This document shows, piece after piece, positions 4,377 to 26,769 of a stretch of 64,000 nucleotides of DNA. A model generated the notes under the pieces. It was given only the letters and a program-made list of their open reading frames with translations, was not told the origin of the DNA and made no database searches. The number at the start of each line of letters is the position of its first letter. The first letter of the stretch is position 1. Origin of the DNA: Dysgonomonas hofstadii (GTDB taxonomy: Bacteria; Bacteroidota; Bacteroidia; Bacteroidales; Dysgonomonadaceae); contig NZ_JACIEP010000001.1 in assembly GCF_014196915.1 (NCBI RefSeq), forward strand, positions 496,001 through 560,000, in the 5' to 3' direction. The translations under genes and the position numbers were made by a program.

Positions 4377-4934
4377 ATGTCAATAGAAAAAGAAGGCTAC
4401 ATATCAGAAATCAAATCACATACAGGAGTGAACGTTAACCGTTGCTACCAGTGTGGAAAATGCTCGGCAGGATGTGCAGTCAACGAAGAAATGGACTATC
4501 CGCCAAGCATGGTTATGCGTATGCTGCAAACAGGTGAAGAGGAATGTTACAATACAGTTCTTCATTCGCAGTCTATCTGGCTATGTGTAACGTGTCAGAA
4601 TTGCCTTACCCGTTGCCCGATGGAAATCGATATCCCCAAGTTGATGGACTATATGCGCGAAAAGTCTTTGGCAAAAGGTACTGCAAGCAAAAAAGCTAAA
4701 AATATCATTTCCTTTCATAAATCATTTCTCGATTCTGTAAAATATACAGGACGTCTGTATGAAATAGGGTTGGTAGGCGGTTACAAAATGCGCTCATTCA
4801 AACTATTGCAAGACCTGAATGTAGCACCCGGAATGTTTGTTCGGGGAAAATTACCTCTGTTGCCTGAAATGGTGAAGGATAAAAAGCAAATCAAAGAAAT
4901 TTTCTCTAAGACCAAGAACAAGCAGGGGGAATAA
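4377..4934 (+). CDS. hdrC: Heterodisulfide reductase subunit C-like iron-sulfur protein
   Basis: 185 residues with two CxxCxxCxxxC-type [4Fe-4S] motifs: Cys23, 26, 29, 33 followed by an AV dipeptide, and Cys70, 73, 76, 80 followed by proline. This is the HdrC pattern. There is no membrane segment, so it is the soluble type. HdrC passes electrons from the clusters of HdrA to the disulfide-reducing HdrB. It is the first gene of a seven-gene run with short gaps (54 bp to hdrB), all on the plus strand. The basic Lys-rich C-terminal tail is ordinary for the family. Confidence 0.92.
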   Translation: MSIEKEGYISEIKSHTGVNVNRCYQCGKCSAGCAVNEEMDYPPSMVMRMLQTGEEECYNTVLHSQSIWLCVTCQNCLTRCPMEIDIPKLMDYMREKSLAKGTASKKAKNIISFHKSFLDSVKYTGRLYEIGLVGGYKMRSFKLLQDLNVAPGMFVRGKLPLLPEMVKDKKQIKEIFSKTKNKQGE

Positions 4935-4988
4935 TAATATAAAAGATCAACTAATACTGTCACATTTGGCAGATAAGATATACTAACC

Positions 4989-5834
4989 ATGGAAATAGGA
5001 TTCTATCCGGGCTGTTCACTCAAAGGTACGTCTTCAGAGTATGCCCAATCGACTTTGGCTTTAGCAAAAGCATTTGGCATCAATCTGGTCGAAATAACTG
5101 ACTGGAATTGCTGCGGTGCAACTGCTGCCCATAATATGAATCACGACTTAGCTGTTGCCCTGCCTGCGCGGGTGTTAGCTCTTGCCGAGAAAGACGGCAT
5201 GAAAGAGATCGTCGTTCCCTGTGCGGCTTGCTATAATAGATTGTCGGTTACTCAGCATGACCTCAACAAGGATAAAGAACTGAAAAAGCGTGTTGAGGAA
5301 ATTCTGCAAATGCCGCTATCAGGTAATCTGGAAATACTGAATGTTATGCAGTTTATCGACAAATATATTGCTGACAAAATAGAAGAGAAAGTAGCCAAAC
5401 CATTCGATCATAAAGTAGTATGCTATTACGGCTGTCTGCTGGTACGTCCGCAGGAGGTGCTGAAATTCGACAGGCTCGAAGATCCTCAGTCTATGGATAT
5501 ACTGATGGCTAAAATAGGAGCGACCAGCCTTGAATGGGGATATAAAACCGAATGTTGCGGAGCGGGATTTTCTGTTTCCCGTACCGATATTGTAGGCAAA
5601 TTATCCGGAAAAATAGTTAAAGATGCTATTGACAGAGGTGCTGAAGCTATTATTGTTGCCTGTCCTATGTGTCAATCCAATTTGGATATGCGCCGTCCGC
5701 ATATCGACAGTTACCTGAAAATGAAAACAAATATACCTGCCATGTTCATTACGCAGGCTATCGGGCTTGCCGTAGGTGTTAGCAGGGAAGATTTGGGACT
5801 GAAAAAACTATTCGTAGCACCTGCATTCGTTTAA
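4989..5834 (+). CDS. hdrB: Heterodisulfide reductase subunit B-like protein, two CCG domains
   Basis: 281 residues with both cysteine-rich CCG motifs complete. The first has Cys9, Cys41-Cys42, Cys78 and Cys81, with spacings of 31 and 35 residues, exactly within the family rule CX31-39CCX35-36CxxC. The second has Cys149, Cys189-Cys190, Cys225 and Cys228. In methanogen HdrB these bind the two non-cubane [4Fe-4S] clusters where the disulfide is cleaved. The intact ligands imply a working disulfide-type active site. The partner disulfide is unknown: Bacteroidales lack CoM-S-S-CoB, and no DsrC is encoded here. Between hdrC and hdrA. Confidence 0.93.
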   Translation: MEIGFYPGCSLKGTSSEYAQSTLALAKAFGINLVEITDWNCCGATAAHNMNHDLAVALPARVLALAEKDGMKEIVVPCAACYNRLSVTQHDLNKDKELKKRVEEILQMPLSGNLEILNVMQFIDKYIADKIEEKVAKPFDHKVVCYYGCLLVRPQEVLKFDRLEDPQSMDILMAKIGATSLEWGYKTECCGAGFSVSRTDIVGKLSGKIVKDAIDRGAEAIIVACPMCQSNLDMRRPHIDSYLKMKTNIPAMFITQAIGLAVGVSREDLGLKKLFVAPAFV

Positions 5835-5853
5835 AAAGAAAGGAGAACATTAT

Positions 5854-7854
5854 ATGTCAAAAATAGGAGTATTTGTTTGTCATTGTGGAGAAAATATCGG
5901 GGCTACGGTCGACTGTGCAAAAGTAGCCGAAGAAGCTTCGAAAATCACGGGTGTTGATGTTAGTGTCGACTATAAATATATGTGTTCCGATCCCGGGCAA
6001 ACGATCATCAAAGACGCTATTCGGGAAAAAGGGCTGACAGGAGTTGTCGTTGCTGCTTGTTCGCCACGCATGCATGAGCCTACATTTCGTAAAGCTTGTG
6101 CCGAAGCAGGCCTTAACCCTTTTATGTGCGAAATGACCAATCTGCGTGAGCATTGCTCATGGGTACACGAAAAGAATGAACAGACCACAGAAAAGGCAAT
6201 TGACCTAGTCCGCATGTTAGTTGAAAAAACGAAGCTGAACAAGCCGCTAACCCCGATCAAAGTACCGATCTCAAAAAAAGCATTGGTTATTGGTGGAGGT
6301 ATAGCAGGCATACAAGCTGCACTCGATATTGCCAATGCAGGACATAAGGTAATTATGGTAGAGAAAGAACCATCGATCGGCGGACACATGTCACAACTAT
6401 CGGAGACTTTCCCTACCCTCGACTGCTCACAATGTATTCTTACTCCGCGGATGGTGGATGTGGCACAGAATCCGAATATTACATTATATACTTATGCTGA
6501 ATTGGAAAAGCTGGAAGGATTTATAGGAAACTTTAAGGCTACAATCCGGCTGAAAGCAAAGAGCGTAGATCCGAAAACTTGTACAGGCTGCGGCGAATGT
6601 ATGACCAAATGTCCTAGTAAAAAGATACCAAGTGAATTTAATGAAGGGTTGGGAAACCGTACAGCAATTTATACACCATTTCCACAAGCTGTACCGAATA
6701 AGCCAGTTATCGACAGGATAAATTGCCGCTACTATCAGACAGGCAAATGTAAAGTCTGTCAGAAAATATGTCCTACGGGAGCGATCGAATTTGATAAGGA
6801 AGATGAATTCATCACCGAAGATATCGGAGCTATTGTTACCGCAACGGGCTTTAATGTACTGAAACCCGATTTCTTCCCTGAATACGGCTATGGTAAATAT
6901 AAGGACGTGATAACCGGATTGCAGTTCGAACGCCTCGCATCTGCATCAGGTCCGACTCTAGGTGCAATACGTCGTCCATCGGATGGAACGGAACCGAAGA
7001 AGATAGTATTTATTGCCTGTGCGGGTTCACGCGATCCGGCTAAAGGCAAGCCATACTGTTCCAAAATATGCTGTATGTACACTGCCAAGCATGCCATGCT
7101 ATACCAGCACAAAGTGCATGATGGCGAGTCGTATGTATTCTATATGGATATACGTGCCGGGGGTAAAAACTATGAAGAATTTACACGCCGTGCTATCGAA
7201 GAGGATGGAGCAAAATATATACGTGGGCGTGTAGCACGTGTCTATGAGAAGAATGGAAAGCTAATCGTTTGCGGAGTAGATACCTTACTCGGTAGTCGTC
7301 CTGTGGAGATAGAAGCCGATATGGTTGTATTGGCCAGTGCAGGGATTGCCAATGAAGGCTCGGAAGAACTGGCACAAAAAATGCATATTTCTTACGACCC
7401 ATATAAATTCTTTGCAGAAGCGCATCCGAAACTAAAACCGGTGGAAACCAATACAGCAGGGATTTATCTCTGTGGAGCTTGTCAGGCACCAAAAGATATA
7501 CCCGAAACTGTAGGCATGGCATCGGGAGCTGCAGCAAAAGTAATCGGGTTGTTTTCGAACGATGAACTGACCCGCGAACCTGTTGTAGCCGTGGTTAATC
7601 GTATCGCTTCACATGATGTATCAACATGTGTAGGCTGTTTCCTTTGTGAAACCGCTTGTCCTTATCAGGCTATAGAACATGAAGAAATAAAGAACCGCGC
7701 GGGCGAAGTGGTTAAAACAGTTGCACGTGTCAATCCGGGGCTTTGTCAGGGATGTGGAACATGCGTATCGTTCTGCCGCTCGAAGTCGATAGATATACAG
7801 GGCTTTTCTAACGAACAGATGTATGCCGAAGTAATGGCCGTATTAGAAGAATAA
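5854..7854 (+). CDS. hdrA: Heterodisulfide reductase subunit A-like flavoprotein
   Basis: 666 residues, the usual HdrA length. The N-terminal region has conserved cysteines (Cys9, 11, 44). A Rossmann FAD site GGGIAG lies at 147-152 with the acidic VEKE after it. DCSQC (Cys191, Cys194) follows. Four iron-sulfur motifs can be read: Cys243/246/249/253, Cys291/299/302/306, and two C-terminal ferredoxin-type sets, Cys592/595/598/602 and Cys631/634/637/641. In bifurcating Hdr complexes the HdrA flavin splits electrons between ferredoxin and the disulfide-reducing HdrBC. No selenocysteine codon is seen. AAAGGAG about 10 nt before the ATG is a good Shine-Dalgarno, uncommon in this group. It sits 19 bp after hdrB. 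Confidence 0.94.
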   Translation: MSKIGVFVCHCGENIGATVDCAKVAEEASKITGVDVSVDYKYMCSDPGQTIIKDAIREKGLTGVVVAACSPRMHEPTFRKACAEAGLNPFMCEMTNLREHCSWVHEKNEQTTEKAIDLVRMLVEKTKLNKPLTPIKVPISKKALVIGGGIAGIQAALDIANAGHKVIMVEKEPSIGGHMSQLSETFPTLDCSQCILTPRMVDVAQNPNITLYTYAELEKLEGFIGNFKATIRLKAKSVDPKTCTGCGECMTKCPSKKIPSEFNEGLGNRTAIYTPFPQAVPNKPVIDRINCRYYQTGKCKVCQKICPTGAIEFDKEDEFITEDIGAIVTATGFNVLKPDFFPEYGYGKYKDVITGLQFERLASASGPTLGAIRRPSDGTEPKKIVFIACAGSRDPAKGKPYCSKICCMYTAKHAMLYQHKVHDGESYVFYMDIRAGGKNYEEFTRRAIEEDGAKYIRGRVARVYEKNGKLIVCGVDTLLGSRPVEIEADMVVLASAGIANEGSEELAQKMHISYDPYKFFAEAHPKLKPVETNTAGIYLCGACQAPKDIPETVGMASGAAAKVIGLFSNDELTREPVVAVVNRIASHDVSTCVGCFLCETACPYQAIEHEEIKNRAGEVVKTVARVNPGLCQGCGTCVSFCRSKSIDIQGFSNEQMYAEVMAVLEE

Positions 7855-7867
7855 AACAATACATTAT

Positions 7868-8347
7868 ATGACTAAAGAATTCGAACCAAAAATATTAGCC
7901 TTTGTCTGCAACTGGTGTACATATGCCGGAGCCGACCTGACAGGCACAAGCCGTATAAAATACGCATCGAACGTAAAGATCGTACGCTTCCCATGTACGG
8001 GGCGCATCGACTTTATGTTGTTGCTGAAAGCTTTTGCAAACGGTTCCGATGGCGTAATTGTATCGGGCTGTCACCCTAATGACTGCCACTATACATCTGG
8101 TAATTTTCATGCGCGTCGTCGTTGGATATTGTTCCGTAGCTTGCTTGATTTTATGGGAATAGATATCCGTAGAATCCAGTTTTCCTGGGTGTCGGCTGCC
8201 GAAGGTGCAAAATGGGCAGATATTGTAAATCAGACTGTTGCTAATATTCGTGAACTCGGTCCGTATATGGAATATCAGCGTGCAGCTGAATTTCTTGCAG
8301 GGAATGAAGACGAACTGGCTAAAGAAATGGAGGTGAACAATGGATAA
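7868..8347 (+). CDS. flxD: MvhD/FlxD-type [2Fe-2S] electron-transfer subunit
   Basis: 159 residues of the methyl-viologen-reducing hydrogenase delta subunit family. The likely cluster ligands are Cys14, Cys17, Cys43, Cys68 and Cys73, in the pattern FVCNWC ... PCTGR ... SGCHPNDCHY. In methanogens MvhD links the [NiFe]-hydrogenase to HdrA. In the Flx-Hdr complexes of Desulfovibrio and fermenters FlxD links FlxABC to HdrA instead. Thirteen bp after hdrA, and its last 8 nt overlap flxC, so coupled translation is likely. The flxC-flxB-flxA context favours the name FlxD over MvhD. Confidence 0.9.
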   Translation: MTKEFEPKILAFVCNWCTYAGADLTGTSRIKYASNVKIVRFPCTGRIDFMLLLKAFANGSDGVIVSGCHPNDCHYTSGNFHARRRWILFRSLLDFMGIDIRRIQFSWVSAAEGAKWADIVNQTVANIRELGPYMEYQRAAEFLAGNEDELAKEMEVNNG

Positions 8348-9125
8348 TCTGATCAGTAAAGCAAAAGAATTACTGGCAAATGGAGACATTGACCTTTTTA
8401 TCGGTTATGAAAAAGGTACCCGTTTGCCTCGCCCTGTTTTTATCTCATCCCTAGAAGATACCGGCAAGCTTATCTTTGATGATCGATGTACAGGAAATCT
8501 GTCCGTTTACCTTACCAGAAAAGATTTGGTTGGAGGTAAGAGAGTTGGAATTACTGCTTCTTATTATGCGTTGAAAAGTATAAGCCAATTATATGATGAA
8601 AATCAGATAAAAGAGGATTCTTTAAAAGTATTCGGATTGATTGATAATTCTCTCAAACAATTCGGAAATATTGAGGAAATAAAGGAATATCTGAAAACAG
8701 CCACTCCTCCGGCAAAACAAACAGACGACGAACTTGTAAGCCAGATAGACGCCATGACGATGCAAGAGCGTTGGGAGTTCTGGACAAACGAACTTTCGAA
8801 ATGCTTTAAATGCTATGCCTGCCGCGCTGCCTGTCCGATGTGTTATTGTACTAAATGTATTGTGGAAGTAAACCGTCCGCAATGGGTGCAGCCTTGGGCT
8901 GCTACAGCAAGCAATATGGAATGGCAGATCAACAGGGTGATGCATATGGCCGGGCGTTGTTCCGATTGCGGATCTTGTGGAGCAGCTTGTCCGTTAGGCT
9001 TACCTGTCCATATACTAACACATAAGATGGCTGCACTGGTAAAAGAACACTTCGGAGAACAGGATGGAAAGGGCAATGTACTTTCCACATTTAAACCCGA
9101 AGATAAAGAAACCTTTATTTTGTAA
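8340..9125 (+). CDS. flxC: FlxC-like [4Fe-4S] protein of the Flx-Hdr complex
   Basis: 261 residues. The first 150 carry no recognisable motif apart from family resemblance. A cysteine-dense run follows: Cys155, 158, 161, 165, 168, 170 and 173, seven cysteines in 19 residues. A second motif is Cys207, 210, 213 and 217 followed by PLGLPVH, as in ferredoxin-like subunits of CoB-CoM reductase and sulfite-reductase families. Its role is to carry electrons between FlxA/FlxB and FlxD-HdrA. GGAGGTGA ahead of the ATG, inside the end of flxD, is a strong Shine-Dalgarno. The symbol rests mainly on gene order and cluster pattern. Confidence 0.82.
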   Translation: MDNLISKAKELLANGDIDLFIGYEKGTRLPRPVFISSLEDTGKLIFDDRCTGNLSVYLTRKDLVGGKRVGITASYYALKSISQLYDENQIKEDSLKVFGLIDNSLKQFGNIEEIKEYLKTATPPAKQTDDELVSQIDAMTMQERWEFWTNELSKCFKCYACRAACPMCYCTKCIVEVNRPQWVQPWAATASNMEWQINRVMHMAGRCSDCGSCGAACPLGLPVHILTHKMAALVKEHFGEQDGKGNVLSTFKPEDKETFIL

Positions 9126-9128
9126 GTT

Positions 9129-10151
9129 ATGGAAAAACGATATATAACCGAGAGTTCGCTAAAGAACTGGCTGTTGAAGATCAAAGACGATGGCTCGCAT
9201 ATATATGCACCTGTACCGAAAGGAGATAAGACAGATTTCAAACGGATAAAATCCATCGACGAAATATCTATGGAGCATATCCAGACTACCCAGTCGGCCA
9301 AAGCTATTGCTTTTCCACGTACGGAAAAGTTGTTTTCCTTTACAAGGCAAAAAGGTGATATTTCCTTGCAGGATTACGATACATCAGCCATCCCTGAAAC
9401 AGTGGTATTTGGCATGCATCCATGTGATGCGACAGGATTTAAACCGTTGTCTTCTATTTTCAATTGGGGTACGCCGGATCTGCCTTTTAATGAAAGGATG
9501 AAACGTACGACTTTGATCAGCGTTAGTTGTTCAACGTGTGATGAATACTGTTTCTGTACCTCTGTAAACGGTAGTCCGGGTAATACGGAAGGCAGCGATA
9601 TATTACTTACCAGGATAAACGATGGTTACCTTGTTGAAGTGATTACAGATAAAGGAAAAGCACTTGTCGAAAAATACAACGATCTATTTGGAGATGCACC
9701 TGAAGTAAATAAGGAAGACTATCTGGCAAAAATTCCTGTACGATTCAGTCTGGATGAATTACAAGGCAAAATCTCGGGTATGTTTGAAAGCGAAGTATGG
9801 AAAAAACAATCGGAACGATGCCTCGGTTGCGGGGCTTGTGCTTTTGTCTGTCCTACCTGTGCCTGCTTCGATATACAGGAAGATTCGAAAGGCAATACAG
9901 GAAACCGCCTGCGCTGTTGGGATGCCTGCGGATTCTCTTTGTTTACCGTTCATACATCGGGACATAATCCTCGTGAAGTGCAAAGCCAGCGATGGAGGCA
10001 ACGCCTGCTACATAAATTCTCTTATATGCCCGAACGGCTTTCGGTGACAGGCTGTACAGGCTGTGGCCGTTGTTCACGGGCTTGTCCGGTAGATATGAAT
10101 ATATGTGAACATTTGGAATCGATCAGCGAACTAGAAAAAGAGACAATCTGA
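9129..10151 (+). CDS. flxB: FlxB-like [4Fe-4S] dicluster protein (sulfite reductase subunit A / hydrogenase beta type)
   Basis: 340 residues. A central group (HPCD near 97-100; Cys134, 137, 141, 143) resembles the extra metal or cluster motif of AsrA and HydB-type subunits. Two ferredoxin motifs follow, Cys231/234/237/241 and Cys309/312/315/319 followed by PVDMN. In the Flx complex this protein takes electrons from the FlxA flavin and hands them on. It follows flxC after 3 bp and precedes flxA by 13 bp. A stand-alone anaerobic sulfite reductase subunit A was considered, but there is no asrC gene next to it and the hdr genes fit Flx better. Confidence 0.83.
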   Translation: MEKRYITESSLKNWLLKIKDDGSHIYAPVPKGDKTDFKRIKSIDEISMEHIQTTQSAKAIAFPRTEKLFSFTRQKGDISLQDYDTSAIPETVVFGMHPCDATGFKPLSSIFNWGTPDLPFNERMKRTTLISVSCSTCDEYCFCTSVNGSPGNTEGSDILLTRINDGYLVEVITDKGKALVEKYNDLFGDAPEVNKEDYLAKIPVRFSLDELQGKISGMFESEVWKKQSERCLGCGACAFVCPTCACFDIQEDSKGNTGNRLRCWDACGFSLFTVHTSGHNPREVQSQRWRQRLLHKFSYMPERLSVTGCTGCGRCSRACPVDMNICEHLESISELEKETI

Positions 10152-10164
10152 AAATTAGATAATT

Positions 10165-11004
10165 ATGGATAAACCAAATATATATCTTCCCTATTTAGTT
10201 ACAATAGAAAAAATAATAGACGAAGCACCGGGGGTAAAAACCTTCCGCCTGAAATTTAAGGATGAAGAAGTAGCACAGAACTTCCAGTTCAAAGCCGGAC
10301 AATTTGGTGAATACTCTGCATTTGGCGAGGGAGAGAGTACCTTCTGTATTGCATCTTCTCCTACCCGCAAAGGATATATTGAGTGCACATTCCGTGAGGC
10401 CGGAAAAGTAACTTCTGCATTGGCGAAGTTAGAAGAAGGACAGACAATGGGATTCCGCGGGCCATTTGGTAATACATTTCCGATAGATGAATGGAAAGGG
10501 AAAAACCTGTTGTTCATTGCCGGAGGTATAGCATTGCCCCCTATGCGCTGTGTAATCTGGAATACACTGGATACACGCGAGAATTTTAAAGATATAAGTA
10601 TCCTTTACGGAGCTAAATCTGTTGCCGACCTGGTATATAAACATGAGCTGAAAGAATGGGATGAGATGTCCGATGTACGGCTCGTTACTACAGTCGATCC
10701 GGGAGGAGAAACTCCTGACTGGAAAGGCGAAGTGGGCTTTGTTCCATCGGTATTGGAGAAAATGAATCCGTCGCCGGAAAATACAATAGCTATCGTTTGC
10801 GGGCCTCCGGTAATGATCAAGTTCACATTTCCGGTATTGGAGAAACTGGGCTTTGCTCCGGAGAATATATATACAACACTTGAAAACCGTATGAAATGTG
10901 GCGTAGGTAAGTGCGGGCGCTGCAATGTCGGTAGCCAGTATGTGTGTAAAGACGGGCCTGTATTCTCAAGGGTACAACTCGAAGCCTTACCAGCCGAGTA
11001 TTAA
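10165..11004 (+). CDS. flxA: FlxA-like FAD/NAD(P)-binding oxidoreductase with C-terminal [2Fe-2S]
   Basis: 279 residues of the ferredoxin-NADP reductase superfamily (as in AsrB, HydG and dihydroorotate dehydrogenase PyrK). An FAD-binding beta-barrel spans about 10-105. The NAD(P) domain starts at LLFIAGGIALPP (115-126) and has CGPP near 212. The C-terminal iron-sulfur motif is Cys245, 250, 253 and 261, of the form CGVGKCGRC...CKDGPVF. It is probably where NADH (or NADPH) enters or leaves the complex. Last gene of the operon, followed by a strong terminator at 11061-11095. Confidence 0.88.
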   Translation: MDKPNIYLPYLVTIEKIIDEAPGVKTFRLKFKDEEVAQNFQFKAGQFGEYSAFGEGESTFCIASSPTRKGYIECTFREAGKVTSALAKLEEGQTMGFRGPFGNTFPIDEWKGKNLLFIAGGIALPPMRCVIWNTLDTRENFKDISILYGAKSVADLVYKHELKEWDEMSDVRLVTTVDPGGETPDWKGEVGFVPSVLEKMNPSPENTIAIVCGPPVMIKFTFPVLEKLGFAPENIYTTLENRMKCGVGKCGRCNVGSQYVCKDGPVFSRVQLEALPAEY

Positions 11005-11119: not shown

Positions 11120-13123
11120 TTACTTCTTTGTTATCTTAATTACATATCCACCTCCCGGAGCCATTGATATCGGAAGCTTTTTGTTAGCCGGAATATCAAT
11201 GATTTCTTTCTTATAGTCGCGGGCTGCTCTGTCGGCATTCACTCCGTCTTTAAAGACTTCTCCCTTGAAACTACCTTCCCCAAGGAAAGACAGATCCAGT
11301 TCAAGATTACGTGCATCCCAGTTAGTCATAGAGCCTACATACCATGTGTCTCCTTTCTGGCGGGCTATAGAAACATATTTACCAATTTCTCCGTTCAGAG
11401 ATACTGTATTATCCCATATAGTTGGAACCGCAGCAATAAATTTAGTGCATTCTTCTTCCCGTTCATAATTGGAAGGGCTGTCGCAAAGCATGTTTATCGG
11501 AGATTCGAAGATGACATACTCAGCTAGTTGGCGGCAGCGTGTGCCCTGACTCATGGCTTCACTGTTCACACTCTTAATATTATTTTTTGAAGCATTACGC
11601 ATAGCGCCTTGTGTATAATCCATAGGGCCTGCTACCTGACGGATAAATGGAATTATTACATCGTAAGTAACCTGATCCAGTTTTTCTGCACCCCATTTCA
11701 TTTGCTCCAATCCGTTTACACCCTCAAAATTGATAACGTTTGGATATGTCCGTTGTAAGCCTGTAGGTTTGTATGTCCCATGATAATCTACCAGCATTTT
11801 ATATTTAGCAGCCATCTGGGCACCACGGTGATGAAAGTTGACCATGATCTGGTCGTCCCTGTCCATAAAGTCTACTTTAAAGCCCTTGATACCCATTTCA
11901 CTGTAATGTTTGCAGACACGTTCCATATCCCTGTCGAAAGCCCAGTAGCCTGCCCAAAGAATAAGGTCTACATTTTTCTTTTTACCGTATTCAATTAATT
12001 CTTTCAGATCGATTTCAGGTACTACCTGAAACAGATCGGCTTGTTTGTTTACAGCCCATCCTTCATCCAGGATAACATATTCGATACCATATCTGGATGC
12101 GAAATCAATGTAATATTTATATGTATCGTTATTGACTCCTGTTTTAAAGTCAACGCCATACAGGTTCCAGGCATTCCACCAGTCCCACGCAACCTTTCCG
12201 GGTTTCACCCACGAATAATCGCCTTGGGCTGGAGTAGCTAGTTTGTAAACCATATCGTTGTCGGCCAGTTCCGAATCCATTGCTGATATAACAACGGCAC
12301 GCCATGGGAAATCTGTCGCACCATCGAATTTAGCAATGTAGCTTTCTCTCGATTTCACAAGCATTTGTAGCATATTGTGTCCGCCTTGTTCCACATCTTT
12401 AGGATATGGTGCAAATATACCTTTTAGTGATCCTTGTTTTTCATTCGGATAAAGGAACATACCCGGATAGTTCATCAGGTCGGCTTCTACGATACAAACT
12501 TTTTTACCGTTTACACCCTCAACCACAAGCGGCGAAATACCAAGACGTTTCTTATTCCATTCTGATAGCAGGATATGATGGTAAGGCTGCTCGAAAGAGT
12601 TCATATACTGGCTCTCGAATGTTCCTTCCGGCTTATTGGCATAATTGACAAATGCTTTGGCATCGGAAGGGAAATTAAATTCAACCTGTTCGTTTTCTAC
12701 CACAAAAGGTTTTTTTGTTGTGGATACAAAGCGATAGGCAACCCCGTCATTATAAGCTCTGAAAACAATGTTGTAATCTCCTTTGAAACGAAGAGTCAGC
12801 TCATTATAGTTGTCAGTTATTTTGTTTCTCTTGTATATAGTTGCATCTATTGTCTGATTAATGGAACTTGTAGATGATTTTGTCAACTTTGGATCAACCC
12901 CGAATGTACTGCCATCTGCTAATTGCATGGATATGGCCGATTTGTCGAGCATGAGATCCCCTTCATGAGAAACTGAATATTCAATAATTTTACCTACTGA
13001 AATCTGCGCTCCTATCTTTCCATCAGGAGACTTTAATGTGAATTGTTTCTGGGCTGAAACTACTGTTGAAAAGCATAAAAATATGCTTAGGAAAGTTGTG
13101 ATCAGCCGTACATTTTTCTTCAT
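11120..13123 (-). CDS. GH97 family glycoside hydrolase, probably the retaining type
   Basis: 667 residues from the ATG at 13123; the frame opens 11 codons earlier, but this ATG starts a clean signal peptide (MKKNVRLI...VVSAQ). An N-terminal beta-sandwich begins LKSPDGKIGAQISVG, a catalytic TIM barrel follows, and a small C-terminal sandwich closes the protein. Key residues, numbered from this start: LDEGW (354-358), FKVDFMD with Asp418, and Glu467/Glu473. The Asp418-Glu473 spacing of 55 matches, as I recall, the nucleophile and acid/base of the retaining Bacteroides alpha-galactosidase BtGH97b, rather than the glutamate bases of inverting SusB. Alpha-galactosidase or a related alpha-glycosidase is therefore likelier than SusB-type alpha-glucosidase. 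Secreted to the periplasm. Confidence 0.88.
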   Translation of the reverse strand: MKKNVRLITTFLSIFLCFSTVVSAQKQFTLKSPDGKIGAQISVGKIIEYSVSHEGDLMLDKSAISMQLADGSTFGVDPKLTKSSTSSINQTIDATIYKRNKITDNYNELTLRFKGDYNIVFRAYNDGVAYRFVSTTKKPFVVENEQVEFNFPSDAKAFVNYANKPEGTFESQYMNSFEQPYHHILLSEWNKKRLGISPLVVEGVNGKKVCIVEADLMNYPGMFLYPNEKQGSLKGIFAPYPKDVEQGGHNMLQMLVKSRESYIAKFDGATDFPWRAVVISAMDSELADNDMVYKLATPAQGDYSWVKPGKVAWDWWNAWNLYGVDFKTGVNNDTYKYYIDFASRYGIEYVILDEGWAVNKQADLFQVVPEIDLKELIEYGKKKNVDLILWAGYWAFDRDMERVCKHYSEMGIKGFKVDFMDRDDQIMVNFHHRGAQMAAKYKMLVDYHGTYKPTGLQRTYPNVINFEGVNGLEQMKWGAEKLDQVTYDVIIPFIRQVAGPMDYTQGAMRNASKNNIKSVNSEAMSQGTRCRQLAEYVIFESPINMLCDSPSNYEREEECTKFIAAVPTIWDNTVSLNGEIGKYVSIARQKGDTWYVGSMTNWDARNLELDLSFLGEGSFKGEVFKDGVNADRAARDYKKEIIDIPANKKLPISMAPGGGYVIKITKK

Positions 13124-13196
13124 ATTGCTTACTGTATTTAGGTTAATTCTTTTCAAAGATAATTAACAATTAATGCGAACCATTAGCCGGGGTTGT

Positions 13197-25443: not shown

Positions 25444-26769
25444 ATGAGCAAACAGATAAAGACGTATGCACTGCATAACTATCTGTCTATTCCTCAAATG
25501 GCATCTTTACCGGATGAAATGAAGAAGGAAATAGACGTAGTGGGCAGGGTATTACCATTCAAAACAAATAATTATGTAGTAGATGAACTGATAGACTGGG
25601 ATAATGCAGAGGTTGATCCGATCTTTACATTGAATTTCCCAAGACGGGGAATGTTGGAGAAAAGACATTATGCGGCAGTTGAAAAACTGCTGGATGAAAA
25701 TGCAGATAAAAGAATTGTTGATGAAAAAATAAGGCAGATCCGGTTATCACTCAATCCCAATCCTGCCGGACAGGAGCATAACGTACCTTATCTGGGAGAG
25801 GTCCGATTGCGTGGAGTGCAACACAAATATCCCGAAACAGTCCTGTTTTTCCCAAGTCAGGGGCAAACCTGCCATGCTTATTGTACGTTTTGTTTCCGTT
25901 GGCCTCAATTCTCAGGTATGAGTGAACTGAAGTTTGCCATGAAAGAGGCCGATCTGCTATTGAAGTATCTGCGTAATCATAAGGAAGTAACAGATATTTT
26001 GTTTACCGGAGGAGATCCGATGGTTATGAATGCTTCTACTCTCGCCACCTATATCAAACCATTGCTTCATCCCGATTTTAATCATATTCATTCTATACGT
26101 ATAGGCACAAAATCATTGGCTTACTGGCCTTACAGATATCTTACCGATCAGGATAGCGATGATGTGATCAGGCTTTTCAAAGAAATTGTATCAGCAGGTA
26201 AGAATCTTTCTGTACAGGCGCATTTCAATCATCCGAGAGAATTATCGACCGAAGCTGTTAGGCAGGCAATTACACGTATCCGAAACACCGGGGCACAGAT
26301 ACGAACCCAATCTCCATTATTGCGGAATATCAATGACAAATCGGAATTGTGGTCGGAAATGTGGCGCAAACAGGTCGATCTGGGTTGTATACCATACTAT
26401 ATGTTCATTGCCCGCGATACAGGGGCAAAGCATTACTTTGAATTACCTCTCGATAAATGCTGGCAGATTTTCCGCAGGGCTTACCGCAAGGTGAGCGGAC
26501 TTTGCCGTACGGTAAGAGGGCCGAGTATGAGTGATCATGCAGGAAAGATTCAGGTGTTGGGCGTTCAGGAGGTAAGGGGAGAAAAAATATTTGTCCTGCG
26601 CTTCCTGCAAGGGCGAAATCCCAAATGGGTAGATATACCGTTTTTTGCAAAATATGATGCGAAAGCGACATGGTTCAATCAACTGGAACCTGCTTTCGGA
26701 GAGGAAAAATTCTTTTTTGAAGAGGAAAAAAAGAGATTGGAGATTACCAAACCGTTTTTGTTTGAATGA
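25444..26769 (+). CDS. KamA-family radical SAM protein (lysine 2,3-aminomutase-like)
   Basis: 441 residues. The radical-SAM cluster motif is CHAYCTFC (Cys143, 147, 150) and the downstream glycine motif is FTGGDPMVM. Near the C-terminal part of the barrel, GPSMSDHAGKIQV corresponds to the region of the PLP-binding lysine (GGGGK in lysine 2,3-aminomutase), so a PLP lysine may be present. Classical KamA has a more glycine-rich version, and the EF-P-modifying EpmB is shorter (about 340), so I do not assign a substrate. It stands alone, with no kamDE or epmA/efp beside it, and is transcribed towards mutL with a repeat element between. Confidence 0.82.
   Translation: MSKQIKTYALHNYLSIPQMASLPDEMKKEIDVVGRVLPFKTNNYVVDELIDWDNAEVDPIFTLNFPRRGMLEKRHYAAVEKLLDENADKRIVDEKIRQIRLSLNPNPAGQEHNVPYLGEVRLRGVQHKYPETVLFFPSQGQTCHAYCTFCFRWPQFSGMSELKFAMKEADLLLKYLRNHKEVTDILFTGGDPMVMNASTLATYIKPLLHPDFNHIHSIRIGTKSLAYWPYRYLTDQDSDDVIRLFKEIVSAGKNLSVQAHFNHPRELSTEAVRQAITRIRNTGAQIRTQSPLLRNINDKSELWSEMWRKQVDLGCIPYYMFIARDTGAKHYFELPLDKCWQIFRRAYRKVSGLCRTVRGPSMSDHAGKIQVLGVQEVRGEKIFVLRFLQGRNPKWVDIPFFAKYDAKATWFNQLEPAFGEEKFFFEEEKKRLEITKPFLFE

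Follow-up and report, generated by a model that had tools for sequence, protein, structure and literature searches.

We analysed a 64,000-nucleotide stretch of Dysgonomonas hofstadii DNA (G000:C1:496001-560000, hereafter the window; G000, the window's genome, measures 5.04 Mb and is 99.7% complete), in which positions 4377-11004 carry the seven-gene operon hdrC-hdrB-hdrA-flxD-flxC-flxB-flxA. The operon is a standard FlxABCD-HdrABC (NADH:ferredoxin/disulfide) system, ordinary and of a widespread known kind. New here are its comparative link to headless complex I, an 11-subunit enzyme without NuoE, NuoF and NuoG, and the lack of any detected DsrC, RnfC or [FeFe] hydrogenase in the window's genome. 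By analogy, the seven-gene enzyme probably splits the electrons of NADH between ferredoxin and a disulfide, a reading adopted because of the established chemistry of HdrABC and Flx-Hdr complexes (PMC12125255, PMC10920352, PMC5296606). We regard it as fairly likely that Flx-Hdr oxidises NADH, that the ferredoxin feeds headless complex I and that HdrB reduces a disulfide other than DsrC.

A sample of 393 genomes from across the order Bacteroidales yielded 49 (in 39 of 206 genera) with an HdrA match at E ≤ 1e-150. Five of these (G036, G038, G098, G294, G360) carry other Hdr types and were set aside; the remaining 44, supplemented with G001 and G020, make up the 46 Hdr-Flx genomes referred to below. 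A headless-type NuoD taken from an Hdr-Flx genome served as query at E ≤ 1e-120 and matched 148 of the 393 genomes, namely 43 of the 44 with Hdr-Flx versus 105 of the 349 others (Fisher P = 2.2e-19). FlxA had no match in G329, which was kept among the 44, nor in G020 (82% complete, outside the 44); with G329 removed from the counts, 42 of 43 Hdr-Flx genomes have headless-type NuoD. In the 20 families that hold both kinds of genome, it accompanies Hdr-Flx in 30/30 genomes and is present in 26/49 of the others (22.5/30 expected, exact P = 1.2e-5), the families having been typed from tables in which some unmatched genomes are not listed. The 14-subunit-type NuoD was matched in 26/41 Hdr-Flx genomes versus 10/342 others, with ten genomes that have a third NuoD class left out.

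The two gene sets are also physically linked in some relatives. In 11 of 43 genomes, representing six families and at least three layouts, nuoD lies no more than 26 kb from hdrA on the same contig. Under random placement (30 kb reach, 4 Mb genome) the probability of 11 or more of 43 is 3e-11, or 3e-6 by family; these figures ignore shared ancestry and use a reach set after the distances were seen. The headless nuo genes follow flxA in G270, G092 and G250, and also in G152, where a DHOD-like gene stands between; G117 has nuo genes inserted between hdrA and flxD on a single contig, and G219 seems to have the same arrangement spread over two contigs; G223, G123 and G370 carry headless nuo upstream of hdr-flx, separated from it by Tol-like genes, and in G376 and G230 the distance is 20-25 kb. 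Beyond these, nuo is divergent beside hdrC in two named fen metagenome-assembled genomes (L152; L150 shows nuoB only), and in G343 (L090), which also carries Hdr-Flx, a second Hdr operon with NiFe-hydrogenase subunits, hdrCBA-mvhD-mvhG-mvhA, follows headless nuo genes.

The linked nuo genes are of the headless kind. Neighbour clustering over 46 loci, followed by identification of one representative per family recurring at three or more loci (the kinase family through similarity alone), returned nuoABCDHIJKLMN without E, F and G. In the headless loci retrieved from 22 genomes, some of them truncated by contig ends, NuoE, NuoF and NuoG all went unmatched at 1e-10; they were matched in nine of ten fetched 14-subunit loci, the tenth being cut at the contig start. 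Subunits were first named by order and size, after which headless A, B, C, D, H, I, J, K and L were confirmed, as were A, C, E, F, G (short, 361 amino acids), H, I, J, K, M and N of the 14-subunit complex of the window's genome, its D being assigned separately and the rest by similarity.

Other neighbours were observed at such loci. PstS-like, TPR, TolQ-like, TolR-like and TonB-like genes occur upstream of hdr-flx in L060, L066, L069, L071, L077, L078, L079 and L081 (not every gene in each), and a weak TolQ match adjoins headless nuo in L135, from the window's genome, and in L143. MvhA/MvhG-type genes adjoin hdr in the divergent loci L083-L085 and L090-L092.

The window's genome encodes both a 14-subunit complex I (contig C2) and an 11-subunit headless one with fused NuoCD (contig C16). 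Because the former is also encoded, 'fermentative', the term applied to this bacterium in the sequence-only reading, is too narrow. Neither RnfC (TIGR01945, E ≤ 1e-30; matched in 9/46 Hdr-Flx genomes) nor [FeFe] hydrogenase (PF02906) had a match in this genome, and both were rejected as its ferredoxin outlet. Nine of the 46 Hdr-Flx genomes match neither, and it is in these nine that the argument for headless complex I is strongest: eight, the window's genome among them, have headless-type NuoD, and the ninth is only 51% complete. Two small genomes rated 99% complete, G114 (1.2 Mb) and G367 (1.0 Mb), keep Hdr-Flx and headless-type NuoD and have no match to DsrC, RnfC, [FeFe] hydrogenase or 14-subunit-type NuoD; judging from L149, they possibly belong to Azobacteroides-like symbionts. 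We infer that in this order ferredoxin would often be re-oxidised by headless complex I.

The missing RnfC match would also make a ferredoxin-to-NAD link useful in the window's genome, and the enzyme might then run by confurcation, forming NADH for reductive steps with electrons from reduced ferredoxin and a thiol. Such a direction has a precedent in a proposal for Desulfovibrio vulgaris during fermentation (PMC10920352). We consider it unlikely here: the redox genes that recur beside the operon in relatives encode complex I and a DHOD-like flavoprotein rather than NADH-consuming dehydrogenases, and no alcohol dehydrogenase was recognised next to the operon.

Several observations weigh against NADH oxidation coupled to headless complex I. 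In the window's genome hdr-flx (C1) and headless nuo (C16) are on different contigs, and the link between them is therefore carried over from relatives, the only genomes in which linkage was seen. Headless-type NuoD occurs in 13 of 13 tested (of 22) Hdr-Flx-negative genomes of the same genus, as it does in the 105 negative genomes of the order, and therefore does not need Hdr-Flx; conversely, G080 has HdrA and FlxA without headless-type NuoD, and falls outside the family strata, no other member of its family being tabulated. Members of family f100 have a 14-subunit nuo close to hdrA as well, at about 14 kb (G223) and about 21 kb (G370), and the linkage there is therefore not specific. DsrC is present in 8 of the 11 linked genomes, unlike the window's genome, for which they may thus not stand. 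Another ferredoxin outlet, [FeFe] hydrogenase, was matched in 33/46 Hdr-Flx genomes, and the outlets searched were RnfC and [FeFe] hydrogenase, leaving aside Nqr and other ferredoxin users. Finally, NADH bifurcation looks wasteful alongside a 14-subunit complex I such as that of the window's genome; it may be needed under some conditions only. We put forward as a tentative proposal, somewhat short of an even case, that Bacteroidales Hdr-Flx is an electron-input device of headless complex I, acting via ferredoxin or by direct docking, with menaquinone next in line.

The operon itself consists of seven consecutive plus-strand open reading frames, all intact (Table 1), with intergenic distances from hdrC to flxA of 54, 19, 13, -8, 3 and 13 bases. 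Pfam, NCBIfam and PDB matches bear out the subunit assignment made from the sequence, although the best NCBIfam models score under their curated cut-offs (HdrA against the HdrA2 model, 754.5 bits, cut-off 1100). In PDB sequence searches HdrA, HdrB, HdrC and FlxD led to methanogen HdrABC-MvhD chains (HdrA, 5odc_A, E 7.1e-206; FlxD, 7bkb_F, E 1.7e-46), FlxC to the C-terminal part of FdhB (7bkb_E, E 3.8e-17), and FlxB and FlxA to sulfhydrogenase 1 beta (9nez_B, E 9.8e-50) and gamma (9nez_C, E 6.7e-66), respectively. PF00970, PF00175 and PF10418 are all above cut-off in FlxA, which thus has FAD (flavin adenine dinucleotide)- and NAD-binding domains and a 2Fe-2S motif. As had been claimed, the cluster holds no recognisable hydrogenase, DsrC or alcohol dehydrogenase between pdxK and the next, minus-strand gene; MvhA and MvhG NiFe hydrogenase subunits were likewise not found among the open reading frames flanking the operon.

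Table 1. The hdr-flx operon, the genes that bound it and one further open reading frame of the window
Feature	Position	Strand	Assignment
pdxK	3117..4019		gene preceding the operon
hdrC	4377..4934	+	two 4Fe-4S clusters; relay between HdrA and HdrB; 4Fe-4S dicluster protein by Pfam/NCBIfam
hdrB	4989..5834	+	two CCG domains (non-cubane 4Fe-4S), PF02754 in two stretches; proposed disulfide site
hdrA	5854..7854	+	FAD/4Fe-4S protein, HdrA2-like; proposed bifurcating site
flxD	7868..8347	+	FlpD/MvhD-type 2Fe-2S linker between Flx and HdrA; PF02662, E 1.4e-48
flxC	8340..9125	+	4Fe-4S dicluster protein
flxB	9129..10151	+	4Fe-4S dicluster protein; sulfhydrogenase beta-like
flxA	10165..11004	+	FAD/NAD(P)-binding, ferredoxin-reductase-type, with PyrK-type 2Fe-2S; sulfhydrogenase-gamma/PyrK-like; putative NADH entry
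next gene	11120..13156	-	
open reading frame	25444..26769		resembles a lysine 2,3-aminomutase-type radical S-adenosylmethionine protein (by eye, no search made)

The cofactor cysteines, described from the sequence as intact, are also conserved. We aligned the window's proteins with those of 36 fetched loci of the same type, keeping rows longer than 85% of the window protein; with the window itself counted, this left 37 rows each for HdrA, HdrB and HdrC and 28-34 for each Flx subunit. In HdrB, all ten cysteines of the two CCG motifs and Cys145 are kept in 37/37 sequences, as are the eight cluster cysteines of HdrC and 26 cysteines of HdrA; in the Flx part, five cysteines are kept in FlxD (32/32), eleven in FlxC (34/34), fifteen in FlxB (33/33) and the four C-terminal ones in FlxA (28/28).

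Genes, motifs, conservation and co-occurrence are direct observations; bifurcation, its direction, ferredoxin as a product and quinone as the end acceptor are modelled on known families. On this basis FlxABCD-HdrABC would form a cytoplasmic complex in which FlxA is reduced by NADH and the electrons travel through FlxB, FlxC and FlxD to the FAD of HdrA. There they would be bifurcated, one branch leading to ferredoxin and the other, by way of HdrC, to the pair of non-cubane HdrB clusters and on to a disulfide. The reduced ferredoxin would be re-oxidised mainly by the 11-subunit complex I without NuoEFG, which would reduce menaquinone and pump ions. A bifurcating NADH:ferredoxin/thiol complex, as already suggested from the sequence, is thus supported as the best functional reading.

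The disulfide reduced by HdrB is not DsrC in the window's genome. The genome-wide search for a DsrC-like partner that the sequence-only reading had proposed was run with PF04358 and returned no match there, which excludes DsrC as the partner at the sensitivity of the Pfam model. The absence of DsrC that it noted for the cluster thereby extends to the genome as a whole, and is not unusual, as 29 of the 46 Hdr-Flx genomes likewise have no match. A DsrC-type carrier of the kind proposed in Desulfovibrio has in its favour the matches in 17/46 Hdr-Flx genomes against 4/41 relatives (mostly of the window's genus and not a balanced control), and those in the linked genomes mentioned above; with G001, G020 and the single-contig genomes G156 and G349 also unmatched, we hold it to be very improbable here. 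To our knowledge, the heterodisulfide CoM-S-S-CoB is not to be expected in this bacterium.

The branch through HdrB might instead end without any soluble disulfide, HdrB passing electrons to menaquinone or straight to headless complex I in the manner of SdhE, the CCG-domain anchor of 8-methylmenaquinol:fumarate reductase. The SdhE model indeed slightly outscores the CoB-CoM HdrB model on the window protein (159.8 versus 152.1 bits), and both the 29 genomes without a DsrC match and the nuo linkage in relatives would suit such a route. Both scores are under the curated cut-offs, however (500 and 345.15 bits, respectively), so that the window HdrB fails the SdhE model; the five distinct PDB chains that it matched are every one of methanogen-type HdrB; and no membrane anchor was recognised. 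We judge this route improbable, though a serious competitor of the disulfide reading.

Bacteroidales commonly produce succinate, which counts towards a further option, that the HdrB branch ends in fumarate via a soluble thiol-type fumarate reductase. An arrangement of this kind has been proposed for the succinate operon of Pseudoclostridium thermosuccinogenes (PMC7282089) and for Endoriftia (PMC11636981). No fumarate reductase is found among the 29 gene families that recur at three or more of the 46 clustered loci, the genome itself not having been searched for one, and we rate fumarate as quite unlikely.

A long DHOD-like protein of the PRK07565 family was considered as a partner. The family is matched in 292/393 genomes at E ≤ 1e-60, a threshold at which the window's genome has no match, and the protein therefore cannot be the general acceptor. 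At E ≤ 1.5e-127, a cut chosen after a gap was seen, 20 of the best 21 genomes are Hdr-Flx genomes (20/44 versus 1/349). The long form adjoins hdr-flx in six loci, L057 (7129-8163), L068, L069, L070, L110 and L168, and headless nuo in three, L128, L129 and L136.

Comparison with described systems places the operon among close counterparts. The FlxABCD-HdrABC of D. vulgaris (Nitratidesulfovibrio; DVU2399-2404) has the same subunits, and Bilophila hdrCBA-flxDCBA the same gene order (PMC12125255, PMC10920352). In D. vulgaris, however, FlxC and FlxD are listed as one protein (FlxCD, DVU_2401) where the window has separate genes, Adh1 is DVU_2405 where no adh was recognised beside the window operon, and DsrC is the proposed acceptor. 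The methanogen HdrABC-MvhAGD (5odc and others) has homologues of HdrA, HdrB, HdrC and MvhD in the window, with cysteines conserved among bacterial relatives; its H2 input via MvhA/MvhG is replaced by an NADH-type Flx input. P. thermosuccinogenes, a non-sulfate-reducing fermenter, carries the same complex clustered with fumarate reductase, an association that the window operon does not show (PMC7282089). Desulfotomaculum reducens is described as combining an eleven-subunit Nuo with FlxABCD-HdrABC-like loci in one genome, but is a sulfate reducer with DsrC as the proposed acceptor, and no connection drawn between its Nuo and Flx-Hdr was seen there (PMC4759654). For the 11-subunit complex I, of which the window's genome has an operon and whose NuoD type is the one counted above, PMC11238625 states the electron donor as open and suggests PFOR, hydrogenase or ferredoxin; the term Hdr was not found in its main text. 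A full-text literature search for a connection of Hdr-Flx or heterodisulfide reductase to complex I in Bacteroidetes gave no description of the linkage that we recognised, subscription papers lying outside its coverage.

The operon is no rare oddity in Bacteroidales, a notion we rejected given that 44/393 genomes of the order carry window-type HdrA. Flx genes were seen in 38 of these 44 (flxA alone in G080), and the survey of the order for the seven genes, also proposed earlier, found 29 of the 38 to have all of them at a single locus in the window order, which shows that the arrangement is not due to chance. The remaining nine have genes that are split, lie at a contig end or are interrupted by nuo genes: in G114 and G367 flxA is apart from hdrA, elsewhere in the genome, and in L058 and L072 flxD and/or flxA are in pieces or cut by a contig end. 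Five genomes (G323, G070, G321, G130, G177) were counted on HdrA identity of at least 76% only, flx not having been examined. In G216 (L048) and G080 (L064), hdrA has no adjoining hdrB, hdrC or flxB-D and flxA is elsewhere in the genome, accompanied in G216 by flxB, flxC and flxD. Among the best 80 of at least 574 named loci, the closest HdrA is that of Dysgonomonas sp. HGC4 (91%), and operons related to it are spread over Chlorobiaceae, Ignavibacteriae, relatives of Geobacter, Planctomycetes and other groups.

Within the window's genus the type is patchy, with three carriers among 25 genomes (of the 22 others, five are less than 90% complete). Recent transfer into the genus is nonetheless not favoured, because pairwise HdrA identities to the window are close to those of IMP dehydrogenase: HdrA is 96% identical in G001, 95% in G020 and 91% in G156, and IMP dehydrogenase 91-92% in G020 (two fragments) and 88% in G156, with no match in G001. 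Counting the other way are this patchiness, the differing gene context described below and some lineages such as G114, with 72% for HdrA versus 82% for IMP dehydrogenase; transfer may also apply to G242 and G323, whose HdrA identities are 87% and 86% and which have no usable IMP dehydrogenase match. The operon context differs among the window's genome, G001/G020 and the sister-genus genome G156 (L046, L088, L089) despite the 91-96% HdrA identity.

The sequence-only reading weighed the disulfide side alone, and it is the ferredoxin side that the comparative evidence mainly informs. Hdr-Flx nearly always comes with headless-type NuoD, a strong co-occurrence that runs one way only; together with the nested gene order it suggests a donor for the 11-subunit complex I. 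The acceptor of Hdr-Flx where DsrC is missing is the second acknowledged question that the operon touches. Both become testable in isolates that carry the genes, namely Dysgonomonas sp. HGC4, Bacteroides oleiciplenus YIT 12058 and Segatella paludivivens DSM 17968, with all seven, and Alistipes sp. dk3624, with six of the seven shown (flxD is not labelled there). If the proposal is true, Hdr-Flx would be a missing donor of headless complex I and, in lineages like G114 and G367 (Nqr not searched), possibly the main route from NADH to quinone.

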